From NCBI GenBank assembly GCA_021793195.1, contig JAJYTG010000001.1, positions 1 to 64,000 on the forward strand: a stretch of DNA of 64,000 bases, read 5' to 3'. Numbering within the stretch: the first letter of the stretch is position 1; the number at the start of each line of letters is the position of its first letter. The position numbers and the translations under genes were made by a program. Origin of the DNA: Pseudomonadota bacterium. GTDB lineage: Bacteria; Pseudomonadota; Gammaproteobacteria; Xanthomonadales; Rhodanobacteraceae. The notes beneath the pieces were generated by a model that saw nothing but the letters and a program-made list of their open reading frames with translations, ran no database searches and had not been told where the DNA came from. This document shows, one piece after another, positions 11,053-46,317 of the stretch.

Positions 11053-11076
11053 GCGCAGCGTCACACCGCTGCCTCT

Positions 11077-11102
11077 GCCCGCGCGCACACTGGCGCGCGG
11101 GC
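11077..11102 (+). terminator. rpsB-tsf intercistronic hairpin (attenuator-like)
   Basis: GCCCGCGCGC (11077-11086) and GCGCGCGGGC (11093-11102) form a perfect 10-bp all-GC stem with a 6-base loop, 24 bases before the tsf start. No U-run follows. It may attenuate transcription, stop exonucleases or set the S2:EF-Ts ratio; the last is inference. Confidence 0.6.
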
Positions 11103-11125
11103 ATCCGCAATCAGAGGAAACACGC

Positions 11126-12004
11126 ATGCAGATCACCGCACAGACGGTCAAGGAACTGCGCGAGCGCACCGGCGCCGGCATGATGGAATGCAAGAAGGCG
11201 TTGACCGAAAACGCCGGCGATATCGACACCGCCGCCGAGTGGCTGCGCAAGCAGGGCCTGGCCAAGGCCGACAAGAAGGCCGGCCGCGTCGCCGCCGAGG
11301 GCCGCATCGCCGTGGCCCGACAGGGCGGCAGGGCGGTGCTGGTCGAGATCAACTCGGAAACCGACTTCGTGGCCAAGGACGAGAACTTCGTCGCCTTCGC
11401 CGCCGCCGTGGCGCAGGCCGCGCTGGCCTCCGGTGCCGGCGACGCCGAGGCACTGAAGACGGTCCGGCTGCCCGGCGGAGAGACCGTGGAGGAAGCGCGT
11501 GCCGCGGTCATCGCCAAGGTGGGCGAGAACGTGCAGGTGCGGCGCCTGACGCGCGTCGACAGCGCGCACACCGTGGCCGCCTACGTGCACGGCGCGCGCA
11601 TCGGCGTGCTGGTCGAGCTGCGCGGCGGCAGCGAGGAGCTGGCGCGCGGCGTCGCCATGCATGTGGCCGCCATGAACCCGCCCTACAACAAACCCGGTGA
11701 CGTGCCGGCCGCGTTCATCGCCAAGGAGAAAGAGATCGAACTGGCACGGATGCCCGGGAAGGACAAGTCCAAGCCAGCCGCGATCCTCGAGAAGATCGTC
11801 TCCGGCAAGATCGCCAAGATCGTCAACGAGAACACGCTCTACGGCCAGCCCTACGTGCTCGATACCGAGCAGACCGTGGAGGCCGTGCTGAGGGCCGCCG
11901 GCGCCGAGGTGCTGCAGTTCCAGCGCCTGGCTGTGGGCGAGGGCATCGAGAAGGTGGTGGAGGACTACGCCGCCGAAGTGATGAAGCAGGCCGGCCTGGC
12001 CTGA
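11126..12004 (+). CDS. tsf: Translation elongation factor Ts
   Basis: EF-Ts exchanges GDP for GTP on EF-Tu. The 292-residue product shows the N-terminal UBA-like domain ([22 protein letters not shown]), the [10 protein letters not shown] motif whose Asp-Phe pair inserts into EF-Tu, and the C-terminal coiled coil ending with [14 protein letters not shown]. The ATG at 11126 has GAGG 8 bases upstream. Spacing from rpsB and the shared direction place both in the conserved rpsB-tsf operon. Confidence 0.97.
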
Positions 12005-12483
12005 GCGCCATCGAGCTCCGGGCGATGCCTGTACAGGCCGTTGTGGTTGGCCGACCGCGTCATGGTGTTCGTGACGAAGTCGTACTCCCAGACGGCGATA
12101 CCGGCCATCTCCGTGGCCAGGTGCAACAACTCGTCGGTGCCCGCAGGATGCCGTGGGCCATCATGTGTTCCAGAGCGGAGTCCGTTGCCGCAAGTATGCA
12201 GCGACCCCTCCGGACAGGACCATCCCCGGAATCCGGGCCACGATGGCGGACTCGATGCTTCCGCACCGGCTTCCGGATCCTGTTCGGCGGATGCCCTGCC
12301 TGCTGTCACAGAAGCACTCGGGGCGGCAGTGACGGAAACCGCGATGGAACGACACCGTTCCCGGTCTATCGCTTCGATGTGGCCTGCGGGTCAGGCACGA
12401 TGCAACGGCGCGGCGCTGTCGCCGGCGCCTCCCGCATTCCGCGCCCGCCGCCGTCCGTACCCGGCAGCCGGATCCGCGGCACC
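12005..12483 (-). pseudogene. Broken PAS-domain sensor remnant; otherwise empty gap
   Basis: No intact gene fills this 479-base gap. The minus strand at about 12020-12150 encodes ELLHLATEMAGIAVWEYDF followed by VTNTMTRSANHNGLY, which reads like the start of a PAS sensor domain but is cut off at the tsf stop. Upstream frames (for example TDSALEHMMAHGIL near 12180) look like continuation pieces in other frames, implying frameshifts. No start, ribosome site or downstream kinase/GGDEF domain is present. I interpret it as the 5' remnant of a signalling gene whose 3' part was lost. Confidence 0.4.
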
Positions 12484-13344
12484 TCAACCGGCCTCGACCG
12501 CCCGCCTTGCATCGCTCACCCAGCCGCTCCACGAGGGCGCGTACAGGCGCGAGCCGGCAAGACCGGCGAGTTCCATGGCCAGCAGGTTGTGGCAGGCGGA
12601 CACGCCGGAACCGCAACTGTGCACCACGCGTGCGGGATCGGTGCCGCCCAGCAGCGCCTGCCACTCGGCGCGCAACTGCGCGGGCGGCTTGAAGCGGCCG
12701 CCGGCATCGAGGTTGTGCGCGAACGGGCGGTTGCGCGCGCCGGGGATGTGGCCGGCCTTGGGATCGATCGGTTCGACCTCGCCGCGATAGCGCTCGGGAG
12801 CGCGTGCATCGACGATGCAGACACTGCCGTCGCGTATGCTGCGCTCGAGCTCGGGCGTATCGACGATGGCGTGCGAATCGAAATCGCGCGTGAAAACCAG
12901 GGCAGCGGGGCGCGGTGTGCGCGGAGCGGGGGTCTCCCGCTGCTGCGGGAGGCCCGCAGCCGCCCACGCGGACCAGCCGCCGTCGAGTACCGCCGCCGGC
13001 TGACCCAACAGGCGCAACATCCACCACAGCCGCGCCGCGCCGATCGCGCCGGCGTGCGCGTCGTAGGCGACCACCGGCAGTCCGGGCCGCCAGCCCCAGT
13101 GCGACAGCCGTCCGATGAACGCGGACGCGGCGGGCAGCGGGTGCCGGCCCAGACCCTCGGCCCTGCGCGACAGATCGGAGAGGTCGCGATCGAGATGCGC
13201 ATGCACGGCGCCAGGCACGTGGCCGGCGGCATAGGCACGCGTGCCGGCCTCCGGATCCCCCAGGTCGTGGCGGCAGTCGACGACCAGTGCGGCACCGGCC
13301 GACAGTGCGGCCAACGCAGCGGCATCGAGCAGCAGATCGGACAT
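12484..13344 (-). CDS. sseA: 3-mercaptopyruvate sulfurtransferase-like two-domain rhodanese
   Basis: This is a 286-residue tandem rhodanese. The N-terminal inactive domain (about 1-140) has VVDCRHDLGDPEAG and WWMLRLLG. The C-terminal catalytic domain carries Cys244 in SCGSGVSA. A CGSGV loop is typical of 3-mercaptopyruvate sulfurtransferases, whereas thiosulfate enzymes have CRKGV. It would move sulfane sulfur from mercaptopyruvate to thiols or cyanide. It ends the Nudix-DUF1289 group: the upstream Nudix gene stops 2 bases before this ATG, so they are probably co-translated. Confidence 0.9.
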   Translation of the reverse strand: MSDLLLDAAALAALSAGAALVVDCRHDLGDPEAGTRAYAAGHVPGAVHAHLDRDLSDLSRRAEGLGRHPLPAASAFIGRLSHWGWRPGLPVVAYDAHAGAIGAARLWWMLRLLGQPAAVLDGGWSAWAAAGLPQQRETPAPRTPRPAALVFTRDFDSHAIVDTPELERSIRDGSVCIVDARAPERYRGEVEPIDPKAGHIPGARNRPFAHNLDAGGRFKPPAQLRAEWQALLGGTDPARVVHSCGSGVSACHNLLAMELAGLAGSRLYAPSWSGWVSDARRAVEAG

Positions 13345-13346
13345 GG

Positions 13347-13943
13347 TCAGGGCTCCAGGCGCTGCAGCAGGTTGAGCAAGATGCCGGCGGTGGCGCCCCA
13401 GATGCGGTGCGGGCCGTAGTTGAACTCGTGCAGGGTGCGCATGTGACCGCGGTACTCGACGCGGCGCGCGATATGGTTGGCCGGCTCGCGCAACCAGGCC
13501 AGCGGCACTTCGAACACCTCGGCCACCTCGTCCGGGTTGGGCCGCGCCACGAAGCCGGGCGCGATGCGCGCCACCACCGGCGTGACGCAGTAGCCGCTGA
13601 TGGTGTCGAAGCAGTCCAGATAACCGATGGGCCGCACTTGCGCGGCGGTCAGACCGATCTCCTCCTCGCTCTCGCGCAGCGCCGTGGCCAGCGCGCCGGC
13701 ATCTTCCCGATCGCAGCGGCCGCCGGGGAAACTCACCTGCCCCGCATGCTGGCGCAGATGCGCCACGCGCCGCGTGAACAGCACCTGCGTGCCGTCCCCC
13801 GCGGGACGCAGCGCCAGCAGTACCGCCGCCGGCGCCAGCGGCGCATCCTCCAGCAGGCCGGCCAGTTCGGCGTGATTCCAGCCCGGCGGCCGCGGCGGCT
13901 GCCGCAGCGGATGCAGCACCCGCAGCAGCCCGTCGTCAGGCAC
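13347..13943 (-). CDS. CoA pyrophosphatase-type Nudix hydrolase
   Basis: This is a 198-residue Nudix hydrolase of the CoA-diphosphatase subgroup (NudL/YeaB-like). The subgroup signature LRQHAGQVSFPGG (63-75) runs into the Nudix box ending RESEEEIGL (90-98). Members hydrolyse CoA and CoA derivatives to 4'-phosphopantetheine and 3',5'-ADP. The start overlaps the DUF1289 gene by 8 bases and the stop is 2 bases from the sulfurtransferase start, so the three form one operon. Confidence 0.9.
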   Translation of the reverse strand: MPDDGLLRVLHPLRQPPRPPGWNHAELAGLLEDAPLAPAAVLLALRPAGDGTQVLFTRRVAHLRQHAGQVSFPGGRCDREDAGALATALRESEEEIGLTAAQVRPIGYLDCFDTISGYCVTPVVARIAPGFVARPNPDEVAEVFEVPLAWLREPANHIARRVEYRGHMRTLHEFNYGPHRIWGATAGILLNLLQRLEP

Positions 13944-14130
13944 GCCGCGCCTCGATGCGACGCAGCGGCAGCACCTCGCGCATCAGGCGCAGCCGCTCGG
14001 CCTCGCTCATGCGTGACCATCCGGCGATCTCGCCCAGGCTGCGCCGGCAGCCCATGCACAGGTTGTCGCGATCGAGCCGGCAGACGCCGATGCAGGGCGT
14101 GGATGCGGGGATGTGCGGCATCACGGACAT
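13936..14130 (-). CDS. DUF1289 small cysteine-rich protein
   Basis: This is a 64-residue DUF1289 protein with the signature STPCIGVCRLD, then LCMGCRRSLGEIAGWSRM. Its four conserved Cys could bind a metal. Function is unknown in the family. ATG 14130 is taken as start, with an in-frame alternative at 14121. The segment TACACT 10 bases before ATG 14130 resembles a -10 box, so the message may have almost no leader. The 3' end overlaps the Nudix start. Confidence 0.82.
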   Translation of the reverse strand: MSVMPHIPASTPCIGVCRLDRDNLCMGCRRSLGEIAGWSRMSEAERLRLMREVLPLRRIEARRA

Positions 14131-41361: not shown

Positions 41362-42402
41362 TCAGGCCTTGAAGATCTCCTTGTTCTTGGCGTATTCCAG
41401 CGCCTGCTGACGCGTGACCGCACCACGCTTGACCATGTCCTGCAGGCACTGGTCCATGGTCTGCATGCCGTACTGCTGGCCGGTCTGGATCGAGGAGTAC
41501 ATCTGCGCCACCTTGTCCTCGCGGATCAGGTTGCGGATGGCCGGAATGCCGACCATGATCTCGTGCGCGGCGATGCGCCCGCCGCCGATCTTCTTCAGCA
41601 GCGACTGCGCGATCACCGCGCGCAGGCTCTCCGAAAGCATCGAGCGCACCATGGGTTTCTCGCCGGCCGGGAACACGTCGATGATACGGTCGATGGTCTT
41701 GGCCGCCGAGGAAGTGTGCAGCGTGGCGAACACCAGGTGGCCGGTTTCCGCCGCAGTCAGCGCCAGGCGGATGGTTTCGATGTCGCGCATCTCGCCGACC
41801 AGGATGTAGTCCGGGTCCTCGCGCAGCGCCGAGCGCAGCGCTTCGTTGAAGCCGTGGGTGTCGCGGTGCACCTCGCGCTGATTGACCAGGCACTTCTGCG
41901 AGGTGTGCACGAACTCGATCGGGTCCTCGATGGTGAGGATGTGGCCGTAGTGGTTCTTGTTGATGTGGTCGACCATCGCCGCCAGCGTGGTGGACTTGCC
42001 CGAGCCGGTCGGCCCGGTGCATAGGATCAGGCCCTGCGGCTGGTCGATCAGTTCCTTGAAGATCTTGGGCGCGCCGAGATCCTCCAGCGTCCACACCTCG
42101 GAGGGAATGGTGCGGAACACCGCCGCCGCGCCGCGGTTCTGGTTGAAGGCGTTGACGCGGAAGCGCGCCAGTCCGGCGATCTCGAACGAGAAGTCGACTT
42201 CGAGGAACTCCTCGTAGTCGCGCCGCTGCTTGTCCGACATGATGTCGTAAATCAGCGTATGCACCTGCTTGTGTTCCAGCGCCGGCACGTTGATGCGGCG
42301 CACGTCGCCGTCGACGCGGATCATCGGCGGCAGGCCCGCCGACAGGTGCAGGTCCGAAGCCTTATTCTTCACCGAGAAGGCCAGCAGTTCGGCGATATCC
42401 AT
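41362..42402 (-). CDS. pilT: PilT, type IV pilus retraction ATPase
   Basis: This is a 346-residue hexameric retraction motor. It has Walker A CTGPTGSGKST (128-138), TIEDPIEFVHTS, ILVGEMRDIETIRLAL, TLHTSSAAKTIDRII and the PilT-specific GIPAIRNLIRED helix. It depolymerises the pilus for twitching and acts on the output of the Pil-Chp system. A TATACT -10 sits about 50 bases upstream of the start. It is divergent from yggS. Confidence 0.97.
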   Translation of the reverse strand: MDIAELLAFSVKNKASDLHLSAGLPPMIRVDGDVRRINVPALEHKQVHTLIYDIMSDKQRRDYEEFLEVDFSFEIAGLARFRVNAFNQNRGAAAVFRTIPSEVWTLEDLGAPKIFKELIDQPQGLILCTGPTGSGKSTTLAAMVDHINKNHYGHILTIEDPIEFVHTSQKCLVNQREVHRDTHGFNEALRSALREDPDYILVGEMRDIETIRLALTAAETGHLVFATLHTSSAAKTIDRIIDVFPAGEKPMVRSMLSESLRAVIAQSLLKKIGGGRIAAHEIMVGIPAIRNLIREDKVAQMYSSIQTGQQYGMQTMDQCLQDMVKRGAVTRQQALEYAKNKEIFKA

Positions 42403-42449
42403 GCGCGTATCCCCCACAGCCGCCCCGGGCGGCGACGACACCCGTTTCG

Positions 42450-42455
42450 AGTATA
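42450..42455 (-). promoter_or_regulatory. -10 box of the pilT promoter
   Basis: TATACT on the minus strand is the best -10 match in the 87-base pilT/yggS gap and leaves a leader of about 40 bases. No convincing -35 is seen at 17 bases, so an activator or a weak -35 is likely. Confidence 0.45.
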
Positions 42456-42489
42456 GCCGGCGGCCATCGGCGCGCAGCAGGCGCGGGCC

Positions 42490-43161
42490 GTGAGCGCGCG
42501 CTGCGTCACGCTCGAGGCGGTGTGCCGGCGCATCGCGGCGGCGCAGGGCGATGGTCCCGGCGTGCGCCTGCTGGCGGTCTCCAAGAGGCAGCCGGCCGCC
42601 GCGCTGCGCGAACTGGCCGGCTGCGGGCAGCGCGCCTTCGGCGAAAACTATGTGCAAGAGGCGCTGGCCAAGCAGCGCGAACTGGCCGGACTCGGCATCG
42701 AGTGGCACCTGATCGGCCCGCTGCAGTCCAACAAGTGCCGCGAGGCGGCGCGGCACTTCGACTGGCTGGAAAGCCTGGACCGCGCCAAGCTGGTCCCCCT
42801 GCTGGCGGCCGCGCGCCCGCCGCAGCGGCCGCCGCTGAACGTGCTGATCCAGGTCAACATCGAGGGCGAGGCCGGCAAGTCGGGCTGCGCGCCGCAGGAC
42901 GTCGAAACGCTGGCACGGCAGGTGGCGCAAGCGCCGGCGCTGGCCCTGCGCGGGCTGATGGCCATCCCGGCACCGCACCCGGACAGCGCGCGGCGCGTGG
43001 ACGCCTTCCGCCGCATGCGCGCGCGATTCGAAACGCTGCGCGCGGAGTTCCCCGGCATCGACACGCTGTCGATGGGCATGTCCGAGGACTTCGAACTGGC
43101 CATCGCCGCGGGCGCGACCGAGGTGCGCATCGGCAGCGCGCTGTTCGGACCGCGCGGGTGA
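42490..43161 (+). CDS. YggS/PLPBP pyridoxal-phosphate homeostasis protein
   Basis: This is a 223-residue single-domain PLP-binding TIM barrel. PLP lysine is Lys32 in LLAVSKRQP. FGENYVQEALAKQ, WHLIGPLQSNKCR and MSMGMSEDFELAIAAGATEVRIGSALFG complete the family pattern. It buffers free PLP and is not a known enzyme. The frame starts with GTG at 42490. It is placed upstream of proC as in many proteobacteria. Confidence 0.93.
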   Translation: MSARCVTLEAVCRRIAAAQGDGPGVRLLAVSKRQPAAALRELAGCGQRAFGENYVQEALAKQRELAGLGIEWHLIGPLQSNKCREAARHFDWLESLDRAKLVPLLAAARPPQRPPLNVLIQVNIEGEAGKSGCAPQDVETLARQVAQAPALALRGLMAIPAPHPDSARRVDAFRRMRARFETLRAEFPGIDTLSMGMSEDFELAIAAGATEVRIGSALFGPRG

Positions 43162-43165
43162 AATG

Positions 43166-43383
43166 CCGGGACTCGGGACTCGGGAAAAGTCCGAAAATCA
43201 AATAACCAAGCACAAGCTCCTTGCTCCCGGCTCCCGCCCCCTCTGCCGATCCTGATTAACCCCTAGAATTCAGGGAACCCGGATGTCTCCGGATCGTCGG
43301 CTCCCAGCATGAATTCGCTTCCACCCGAGTCCCGAGTCCCGAATCCCGAGTCCCGGGCATCTGTTTCGAGTCCCGAGTCCCGC
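43166..43383. repeat. GAGTCCCG-type short repeats flanking and entering proC
   Basis: Directly after yggS the plus strand reads CGGGACTCGGGACTCGGGA (43167-43185). About 140 bases later come many opposite-orientation copies of CCGAGTCC (43324-43357, 43367-43383). The two groups are inverted repeats of each other. Similar tandem GGGACTCGGGA or GGGATTCGGGA units are familiar between genes in xanthomonads. The right-hand group lies inside the open reading frame of proC. Confidence 0.8.
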
Positions 43384-44211
43384 ACACCCGGCGCCATCGT
43401 CTTCCTCGGCGGCGGCAATATGGCACGCGCGCTGATCGGCGGGCTGCTGCGCGGCGACGGCGACGCCGCGCGCATCCGCGTCGCCGAGCCGCGCCCCGAG
43501 GCGCGCGACGAACTGGCACGGACGTTCGGCGTCGGCGTCCACGCGGACAACGCCGAAGCGGTACGCGGCGCCGCCCTGTGGGTGCTGGCGGTCAAACCGC
43601 AGGTGCTGCGTGAGGTCTGCCGCGGCCTGGCGACGCCGGCCCAGCGCGAGCGGCCTACGGTGCTCTCGATCGCCGCCGGCATCCGTTGCGATGCGATCGC
43701 AGGCTGGCTGGGCGGCGGCCTCGCGGTGGTGCGCGCCATGCCCAACACGCCGGCGCTGCTGGGTGCCGGCGCCACCGGCCTCTATGCCAATGCTCGCGTG
43801 GATGCCGCTGGGCGCGCGCACGCGGAACGCATCATGGCCGCGGTGGGCGCGGTCTGCTGGATCGCCGAAGAGGGCTGGATGGACATCGTCACCGCACTGT
43901 CGGGCTCGGGGCCGGCCTATTTCTTCCTGCTGGCCGAGGCCATGGAAGCTGCCGCGGTGGCGCAGGGTCTGCCGGCGGAAACGGCGCGCCTGCTGGCGGC
44001 ACAGACCTGCCTGGGCGCCGGTCGCATGCTGCGCGAGGACGGCGCCGACGCGTCCATCCTGCGCCAGCGGGTGACCTCGCCGGGCGGCACCACCCAGGCC
44101 GCGCTGCAGGTGCTGCAGCGCGGCGGATTCGCCGAACTGGCGGTACAGGCCGTCGCCGCGGCCGCGCGGCGCGCAGCCGAGCTGGCAGCCACGGCCGGGG
44201 CCGCGCCGTGA
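43309..44211 (+). CDS. proC: Pyrroline-5-carboxylate reductase
   Basis: ProC makes proline from pyrroline-5-carboxylate with NAD(P)H. The 300-residue product has the Rossmann start IVFLGGGNMARALIGGLL, AVKPQVLREV, VRAMPNTPALLGAGATGLY and the C-terminal SGSGPAYFFLLAEAMEAAA with VTSPGGTTQAAL. ATG 43309 is the only ATG before the Rossmann strand. It gives an odd 28-residue leader, PESR/NPESR/SPESR, encoded by the GAGTCCCG repeats, so the true start could lie later at a non-ATG codon. The stop overlaps the next gene (GTGA). Confidence 0.93.
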   Translation: MNSLPPESRVPNPESRASVSSPESRTPGAIVFLGGGNMARALIGGLLRGDGDAARIRVAEPRPEARDELARTFGVGVHADNAEAVRGAALWVLAVKPQVLREVCRGLATPAQRERPTVLSIAAGIRCDAIAGWLGGGLAVVRAMPNTPALLGAGATGLYANARVDAAGRAHAERIMAAVGAVCWIAEEGWMDIVTALSGSGPAYFFLLAEAMEAAAVAQGLPAETARLLAAQTCLGAGRMLREDGADASILRQRVTSPGGTTQAALQVLQRGGFAELAVQAVAAAARRAAELAATAGAAP

Positions 44212-44798
44212 ACGGCTATTTCGCCAGTGCGGCGCAACTGCTGATCACCTTCGTCTTCGGCGCGGCGATGGCGATGTTCGTGCTGCGCCTGCTGGCCGAA
44301 CTGGCGCGCGTGAATTTCTACAACCCGGTCTGCCAGTTCCTGTTCCGCGGCACCCACCGGCTGGTGGCGCCTCTGCGGCGCTTCGTGCCCAGCCTGCATC
44401 GCGTGAGCCTGGCGCCGCTGCTGCTGGCCTACCTGCTGGCGGCATTCAAGGTTGCGCTGCTGGTGCTGCTGCAGGGAGCGCTGCCGCAGCCCGCCGGCCT
44501 GCTGCTGATGGCGCTGGCCGACCTGCTGGACTTCGTGCTGGTGCTCTACCTCGCGATCATCTTCGCGGCCGCGCTGATGAGCCTGTTCGCGGTGGACCCG
44601 CAGCATCCGCTGGTGCCTTTCATCAGCCAGATCGCCGAGCCGGTGCTGCGCCCGCTGCGTCGCGTGGTGCCGGCCCTGGCCGGGCTGGACTTCTCGCCGG
44701 CCATCGCCATTCTGCTGATCATGCTGGCGCGGCTGCTGCTGGTGCAGCCGCTGTTCGATTTCGCGACGCGCCTGGCGCTGGGCGGTGCGGGATCGTGA
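44208..44798 (+). CDS. YggT-family membrane protein
   Basis: This is a 196-residue protein with two YggT repeats, each a pair of hydrophobic helices joined by a conserved FYNPVCQFLFRGTHRLVAPLRR-type segment and HPLVPFISQIAEPVLRPLRR. YggT proteins are linked to osmotic and potassium homeostasis; the mechanism is unknown. It starts with GTG overlapping the proC stop. Confidence 0.9.
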   Translation: MNGYFASAAQLLITFVFGAAMAMFVLRLLAELARVNFYNPVCQFLFRGTHRLVAPLRRFVPSLHRVSLAPLLLAYLLAAFKVALLVLLQGALPQPAGLLLMALADLLDFVLVLYLAIIFAAALMSLFAVDPQHPLVPFISQIAEPVLRPLRRVVPALAGLDFSPAIAILLIMLARLLLVQPLFDFATRLALGGAGS

Positions 44799-44823
44799 GC
44801 CGGACCCGGTCCCATCGGCAGAC

Positions 44824-45519
44824 ATGCAGGCGCTGCTGATCCGGCACGCCCAGGCCGACTGGGGCGGTTCCCGCTACGACCGGCTCAGCGATCGCGGCCG
44901 ACGGCAGGCCGCGCAGCTGGGCCGCTGGCTGGCCGGCAGCCCGGACTGGCGCCCGCAGCGTCTGCTCTGTGGACCGCGCCGGCGCCACCGCGACACCGTG
45001 CAGGCGATCCGCGCCGCGTATCGCGCCGCCGGCATCGCCACGCCGGCCGTCGAGGTCGAACCGGACTGGGACGACGGCGATGCCGAGGCATTGCTGCGGG
45101 CATTCCGCAGCACCTATCCGGATGCGCCGGAGCTGGCCTACGTCGCCGCCGGTGCCACCGCGGCCCAGGGACGTGCGTTGCTGCGTGTGGTGTTCGCCGC
45201 CTGGCGCAGCGGCAGGCTGGATGCAGACATGCCCGAGCGCTGGGATGCCTTCGCCGCGCGCGTGGCGCGCGCCCGCGCGGCGCTGGCGGCGCAACCCTGC
45301 GCGCAGGTACTCGTCGTCAGTTCGGCCGGCGCCATCGCGCGCTGCGCACAGGCTGCGCTGCGCCTGGATGATGCCGCGCTGGTGGAACTGAACGTGCGCC
45401 TGGCCAATGCGGCGCTGGCCCTGTTCAGCATCGAGGAAAACCAGTGGTACCTCGAGGCCTGGAACCTGCAGCCGCTGGTCTGCGCCGGCGCGGACGCGGA
45501 GCTGGCCAGCAGCCACTGA
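44824..45519 (+). CDS. Histidine phosphatase superfamily protein
   Basis: This is a 231-residue phosphoglycerate-mutase-like protein. The catalytic LIRHAQADW (Arg7, His8) opens the protein. A CGPRRRHRDTVQAI segment (Arg) and VLVVSSAGAIARCAQAAL, where the usual second catalytic His (SHG) is replaced by Ser-Ser-Ala, raise doubt about full activity. Start ATG 44824 gives the family N-terminus. The substrate is unknown. It is the last gene of the yggS-proC-yggT run and is convergent with the BtuF-like gene. Confidence 0.82.
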   Translation: MQALLIRHAQADWGGSRYDRLSDRGRRQAAQLGRWLAGSPDWRPQRLLCGPRRRHRDTVQAIRAAYRAAGIATPAVEVEPDWDDGDAEALLRAFRSTYPDAPELAYVAAGATAAQGRALLRVVFAAWRSGRLDADMPERWDAFAARVARARAALAAQPCAQVLVVSSAGAIARCAQAALRLDDAALVELNVRLANAALALFSIEENQWYLEAWNLQPLVCAGADAELASSH

Positions 45520-45525
45520 GCTCAC

Positions 45526-46317
45526 TCAGCGCCGGGCCCAGGCGCGGATGCGCGCATGCAGCGCGTCCAGCCCGTCGGTGAGCGCCGCCGGTCCCGGCTG
45601 CAGGATCAGCGGCGAGCGGATTTCGAACACCTGCCCGGTGCGCACGGCGGTGATCGCCGCCCAGCCCGGCCGCGCGGCCAGCCGTTCGGGACGGAAGCGC
45701 TTGCCGCACCAGGAGGCGAGGATGATCTCGGGATCGCGCCGCACCACCTCCAGCGGATCGGCCAGGATGCGGTCGCGCGCCAGGGGTTTTTCCGCCCGCT
45801 CCGGAAACACGTCCTCGCCGCCGGCGATGCGCACCAGTTCCGTCACCCAGCGGATTCCGGTGATGGGCGGCTCGTCCCATTCCTCGAAATACACGCGCGG
45901 ATGCCGCAGCAGCGCCGCCCCCGCCGTACGCACCGCTTCCAGGTGCCCCGCGAGCCGCGTGGCATAGGCGGCGGCCGCGGCCGCTTCGCCCACCAGCGCG
46001 CCCAGCCGGCGCACATAGTCGAGGATGCCGTCCACCGAGCGGTGGTTGCTGATCCATACCTCGATGCCGGCCTTGACCAGATCGTGCGCGATGCCGGCCT
46101 GGATGTCGGAAAAACCGATGGCGAGGTCCGGTTCCAGCGCCAGGATCGCGTCCAGCCTGGCGCGGGTGAATGCCGAGACCCTGGGTTTCTCCCTGCGCGC
46201 CCGCGGCGGGCGCACGGTGAAGCCGCTGATGCCCACGATGCGGTCCTGCGCACCCAGGGCGTACAGCACCTCGGTGGGCTCTTCGGTCAGACAGACGATG
46301 CGCCGCGGACCGTGCAT
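45526..46317 (-). CDS. BtuF/FepB-like periplasmic-binding-fold protein, no signal peptide
   Basis: This is a 263-residue class III binding-protein fold: IVCLTEEPTEVLYALGAQDRIVGIS, LDAILALEPDLAIGF, then VWISNHRSVDGILDYVRRLG. In transporters it binds cobalamin or iron chelates. There is no signal peptide (MHGPRRIVCL) and no permease or ATPase nearby, so it may be cytosolic or act with a distant transporter. The B12-dependent reductase 1.7 kb away makes a cobalamin link attractive, but that is inference. It starts 19 bases downstream of the protease gene. Confidence 0.8.
   Translation of the reverse strand: MHGPRRIVCLTEEPTEVLYALGAQDRIVGISGFTVRPPRARREKPRVSAFTRARLDAILALEPDLAIGFSDIQAGIAHDLVKAGIEVWISNHRSVDGILDYVRRLGALVGEAAAAAAYATRLAGHLEAVRTAGAALLRHPRVYFEEWDEPPITGIRWVTELVRIAGGEDVFPERAEKPLARDRILADPLEVVRRDPEIILASWCGKRFRPERLAARPGWAAITAVRTGQVFEIRSPLILQPGPAALTDGLDALHARIRAWARR

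Follow-up and report, generated by a model that had tools for sequence, protein, structure and literature searches.

A heptameric G-rich repeat of a known class in coding position at the start of proC, most likely adding a tolerated disordered tail

The window analysed here is a stretch of 64,000 nucleotides from a Rhodanobacteraceae genome (contig JAJYTG010000001.1), in which proC, the gene for pyrroline-5-carboxylate reductase, lies on the + strand at 43309..44211 and encodes 300 amino acids from an ATG at 43309. Its product contains an F420_oxidored domain (residues 30-124) and a P5CR_dimer domain (residues 189-292) and aligns over residues 29-296 with the solved P5C reductase PDB 3tri, such that both the NADP-binding and the P5CR dimerisation domains are present, along with the conserved motifs of the enzyme. 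The conserved core begins with strand 1, IVFLGGGNM, at 43396..43422 (+ strand), as placed from sequence, alignment and predicted structure. The next gene upstream, at 42490..43161 on the + strand, is an open reading frame of the yggS/PLP-homeostasis type (Ala_racemase_N, Pfam PF01168, E 3.6e-22). Between the two genes stands a promoter-like -10 box, TAGAAT, at 43264..43269 (+ strand), 45 nt 5' of the start ATG, and such a box is found 35-45 nt 5' of the ATG in nine loci of the genus with an N-terminal extension. This conserved box is all that is left of the promoter signals sought in 43100-43400, where no consensus promoter, full sigma-70 promoter or terminator was found; moreover, there is no clear Shine-Dalgarno sequence 5' of ATG 43309, and no Rfam family matches the locus.

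Three arrays with a period of 7 nt lie near the proC start, as detected by TRF. The upstream array, (GGGACTC)2.7 at 43167..43185, is G-rich on the + strand, adjoins the end of the yggS-type gene 5 nt past its stop and has three G-tracts only. The other two have the opposite orientation and fall within the proC reading frame: array 1, CCC(GAGTCCC)2GAATCCCGAGTCCCG, at 43324..43355 (+ strand, C-rich, 4.6 copies), codes for approximately residues 6-16, and array 2, CGAGTCCCGAGTCCCG, at 43367..43382 (+ strand, 2.3 copies), for approximately residues 20-25, with a repeat-free spacer at 43356..43366 (+ strand) between them. The whole insert consists of heptamer units in tandem with a short spacer and is under 60 nt long. 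Array 1 has five CCC tracts spaced 4 nt apart, giving a G3N4 motif with five tracts and 4-nt loops on the - strand, the template strand of proC, and hence a putative quadruplex. There is perfect complementarity over 18 nt between the upstream array and the in-ORF array. Within the window, the dimer GAGTCCCGAGTCCC has five matches at up to 2 mismatches, all of them at the proC locus, where 0.70 are expected, and a count of five was reached in 0/100 dinucleotide shuffles; evidence from the 8-mer by itself is weaker (7 matches in the window against 3.0 expected). A sequence-only reading of this DNA had claimed Xanthomonad-type repeats inside the start of ProC, which the TRF arrays and the dimer statistics bear out; it had assigned them to residues 5-26, where arrays are indeed present, although the exact positions are residues 6-16 and 20-25.

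ATG 43309 lies 15 nt 5' of array 1, and from there to the core no other in-frame ATG, GTG or TTG occurs. The next in-frame ATG (43420) falls within the GGGNM motif and cannot, therefore, start a working enzyme. Upstream regions of proC were drawn from the genus, from named genomes and from the family, giving 214 loci in which the 150 nt 5' of the core were scanned for arrays, blind to frame. In 15 of the 214, an array lies past the last ATG upstream of the core. These loci differ in heptamer type, spacer and number of units, yet in 15/15 the ATG shares the reading frame of the core, the chance being 1/3 for each; there is some dependence among them, L001 and L002 having one and the same sequence, which L003 closely resembles. 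None of the 15 has an ATG, GTG or TTG between array and core. Two further loci carry the array 5' of the ATG; L109, interrupted by N, was left out, and simple ORF calls running through the arrays of L096 and L110 were left uncounted, as they may be spurious where arrays are without stops. The heptamer types at array-bearing loci include GAGTCCC, GATTCCC, CAGCCCC, GGTCCCC, GAATCCC and CATTCCC. The comparison of starts in relatives, which the sequence-only reading had proposed as a check, thus supports its suggestion that the repeat extended the N-terminus of ProC; its statement that the repeat had 'invaded' proC is a fair one, save that the event is old, the site being common to several species of the genus.

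In the AlphaFold model, residues 1-25 of ProC have a pLDDT <50 and the fold begins with the first strand at residue 30. The N-terminal tails of other ProCs are unrelated and vary, MTTPVASTSSSSSSC being one example, and it follows that this position of the protein tolerates extra sequence. A 15-nt repeat encoding MTSAS five times occupies the same N-terminal place in locus L020, from a Lysobacterales MAG, so the site tolerates other tandem repeats too. A separate observation concerns locus L005 (relative G011), which carries, within 250 bases ahead of the proC start, a very long, different heptamer array that is C-rich on the proC strand and made up successively of CTCTTTC, GCTTTCC and GCTCCCC units.

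Heptameric G-rich repeats were described by Rehm et al. 2015 (PMC4692102), with units of GGGNATC in Xanthomonas and GGGGA(T/C)T in Nostoc. In two Xanthomonas genomes these occupy 186 and 183 loci, with 2-26 units of which four are favoured, and form 70 and 75 convergent pairs, the G-rich strand being antisense near starts and sense just past stops; 11% and 7% overlap ORFs, quadruplexes form in vitro and no regulatory role was identified (PMC4692102). Many of the genes concerned are metabolic, and some of the repeats are intragenic. The arrays at proC share with them the 7-nt unit in tandem runs of at least two, the GGG tract, a genome-wide occurrence, the convergent inverted pairs and the placement at starts and stops. 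In this regard, a census of the window's own genome (G000), made up of pattern matches and 20 fetched stretches, gave 101 dimer matches (<=2 mismatches) in 1.78 Mb against 2 for a reversed-pattern control, several of the fetched sites having the array directly past a stop or before a start. The arrays at proC are themselves a convergent pair, and the nine close opposite-strand pairs in the G092 list are likewise all convergent. The search of Xcc and Xac required GGGAATC at least once, with other units of GGGANTN (PMC4692102). At the proC locus the units are GGGACTC and one GGGATTC, both fitting GGGANTN, and with no GGGAATC unit the locus is accordingly a sister type of the class and not part of the strict GGGAATC set; at the same site in other genera, the units are of GGGAATC (the reverse complement of GATTCCC), GGGATTC, GGGAATG or GGGGACC type. 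Unlike the GGGNATC repeats, the GAGTCCC/GGGACTC arrays are found in N-terminal coding sequence, keep the frame across species and genera and recur in the linkers of AceE and MetG. The words 'in-frame', 'linker' and 'amino acid' gave no match in a text search of PMC4692102, though intragenic repeats are counted there.

Two other systems bear a likeness to the proC arrays. Rickettsia palindromic elements (reviewed in PMC10969869) also place repeat DNA in frame within housekeeping genes, adding peptide, but are palindromic, MITE-like elements of about 150 bp and not 7-nt tandem arrays, and the short in-ORF insert of heptamers and spacer is not one of them. The TAACTGA repeats of Beggiatoaceae and cyanobacteria (PMC4679880) are tandem heptamers near start codons, with indels in 7-nt increments between strains; they differ in their sequence, are not G-rich and are mostly intergenic direct repeats. 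A literature search by repeat sequence found nothing relevant.

In-frame arrays are also present in other core enzymes. In AceE of G000 (L105:1951-1982) an array lies in frame between the PDH_E1_M domain (407-626) and the C-terminal domain (675-801); this linker has four units in G000 and G011 and one in G007 and G003, and in alignment the G011 and G007 sequences differ here by exactly 21 nt. In methionyl-tRNA synthetase, MetG (G000, L106:3959-3986), an in-frame array precedes the tRNA-binding domain (615-708) and varies in type and number among species, the G003 and G000 alignment differing by a 21-nt block of three units plus 6 nt. Linkers with and without arrays occur among the AceE and MetG homologues of the genus. 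A heptamer array is seen, too, in the C-terminal tail of CarA, the small chain of carbamoyl-phosphate synthase (L107:1021-1054), beside a longer, degenerate peptide repeat (GRAEDRDPG-like).

The common heptamer type varies between genomes. By exact-dimer counts of five types, the five genomes of the window's genus have GAGTCCC and none of the other four, except for one match in G007, while G069 has 170 GAATCCC, its congener G144 has 121 CATTCCC and 36 GAATCCC, G096 has 14 GATTCCC and G092 has 66 GGTCCCC and 71 GAGTCCC; G016, another congener of G069, has none of the five. In G000, G009, G092, G069, G144 and G096 the proC array is of a common type of its genome, the exception being G104, with a CAGCCCC array at proC and GAGTCCC as the commonest type tested. 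This pattern suggests that the heptamer arrays are under concerted turnover, part of which shared descent within genera can explain. A bolder proposition, which we regard as distinctly unlikely, is that the arrays, coding ones included, are written or rewritten in trans, by templated addition or genome-wide gene conversion, and that selection then keeps only the in-frame outcomes. Were it true, the arrays would provide core enzymes with peptides for linkers and tails, and would not be local repeats in slow drift.

Tandem repeats in coding sequence near N-termini are classic contingency loci. A phase-variation switch, whereby one-unit slippage of 7 nt would turn ProC off, giving proline auxotrophy, and on again, is one account of a unit that is not a multiple of three, and the contingency role of such repeats is also raised in PMC4692102. 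It is, nevertheless, a very improbable one here: the arrays are short and interrupted, the genes are housekeeping ones, the sampled proC loci are all in frame, AceE and MetG differ by three-unit steps, and no frame-switching variation in unit number was seen between species; Rehm et al. (PMC4692102) also deemed phase variation unlikely for their repeats. There is similarly very little likelihood that the array is 5' untranslated sequence and that ProC initiates further downstream, from a rare codon such as ATC 43396, even though the missing Shine-Dalgarno sequence ahead of ATG 43309 and a placement that mimics the intergenic rule of the class, C-rich just 5' of a start, would suit it. A downstream non-ATG start, the other option offered by the sequence-only reading, is rejected by the frame test, and the sole candidate codon common to all loci is the ATC/ATT that codes for the strand-1 Ile (or Val). 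Moreover, the commonest array-less relatives begin with an ATG immediately before the core (MTRIAFIGGG type). An artefact of assembly might be suspected in a draft MAG with a binning conflict. Indeed, over the stretches compared, 11067-14000 and 41390-46208, the window shows 100% identity with a 41,868-bp contig from a second MAG in the genus (G004:C92, by coordinates JAJYTR010000016.1, DX2.bin25). Between these two MAGs, by contrast, MetG and AceE reach no more than 80-83% identity, and contig G004:C11 carries a 91% copy of the region adjoining the match; the contig is probably mis-binned in one of the two. As an explanation of the array itself, however, artefact has a negligible probability, the same site being filled, with different sequences, in separate assemblies of several species.

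A further account, which could add to the coding one, is that the inverted pair is a regulatory structure that tunes proC expression, either through a hairpin in read-through RNA or through a template-strand quadruplex about 50-80 nt past the putative transcription start. RNA from 43150-43450 pairs both arrays (MFE -119.8, z -2.23), and the 18-nt complementarity of the arms, the five-tract motif on the template strand and the quadruplex formed in vitro by a sister sequence (PMC4692102) all speak for such a role, as may the G-rich upstream arrays of L001, L004, L230, L240 and L247, which match the heptamer type of the in-ORF array. The putative promoter box, however, lies between the upstream and in-ORF arrays. 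Necessarily, therefore, any fold over the start requires read-through from yggS, and RNA beginning near the putative transcription start (43275) has less structure than its shuffled versions (z +2.17). In other words, the sequence-only reading's suggestion that opposite copies fold over the start may hold for a yggS-proC read-through RNA but does not for RNA from the putative promoter of proC itself. Moreover, L006 and L007 lack the upstream array but keep proC and a degenerate in-ORF array, the upstream array of the window has only three G-tracts, and Rehm et al. (PMC4692102) could not identify a regulatory role. The type match may merely mirror the genome-wide heptamer type, and is not claimed as a sign of hairpin selection, since types are mixed within the convergent pairs of G000 and confounded with the genome-wide type between genomes. 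On balance, a regulatory structure appears rather unlikely.

We consider it highly probable that the proC array is a heptameric G-rich repeat inside coding sequence, between the real ATG at 43309 and the first ProC strand, where it adds a tolerated disordered tail. As fitted to the known class, it is a coding-sequence variant, and its effect on ProC is probably near-neutral. Its placement is the usual one for the class, at a gene start, with the C-rich strand as the coding strand and an inverted, G-rich partner just past the stop of the preceding gene. The heptamer has no stop in any frame and codes for a hydrophilic heptapeptide, ESRVPSP, and so would add a disordered N-terminal tail that the enzyme may tolerate. 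Heptamers of this kind lack stops in all six frames, as do 204/256 of the GGGNNNN heptamers, so that the absence of stops is helpful without being distinctive. Since translation of proC has to be preserved, only frame-keeping changes in unit number would be allowed, that is, steps of three units (21 nt, or 7 codons), as seen in AceE and MetG though not directly in proC. We infer that the tail undergoes translation with near-neutral effect, that the promoter element is TAGAAT and that hairpin or quadruplex effects, if any, are minor.

At proC, then, a known class of repeat most likely occupies coding DNA, subject to a frame rule, and gives the enzyme a tolerated disordered tail. Annotators of such genes should be cautioned not to trim the starts, and the genome-specific heptamer types make the spread of the arrays testable. 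How a non-triplet repeat may persist in coding DNA is simply explained if it is stop-free in any frame, encodes a hydrophilic peptide and falls in a disordered site. The class has been described as mainly intergenic; here, across several genera, it turns up repeatedly in a housekeeping gene, at one and the same coding position and without exception in frame.
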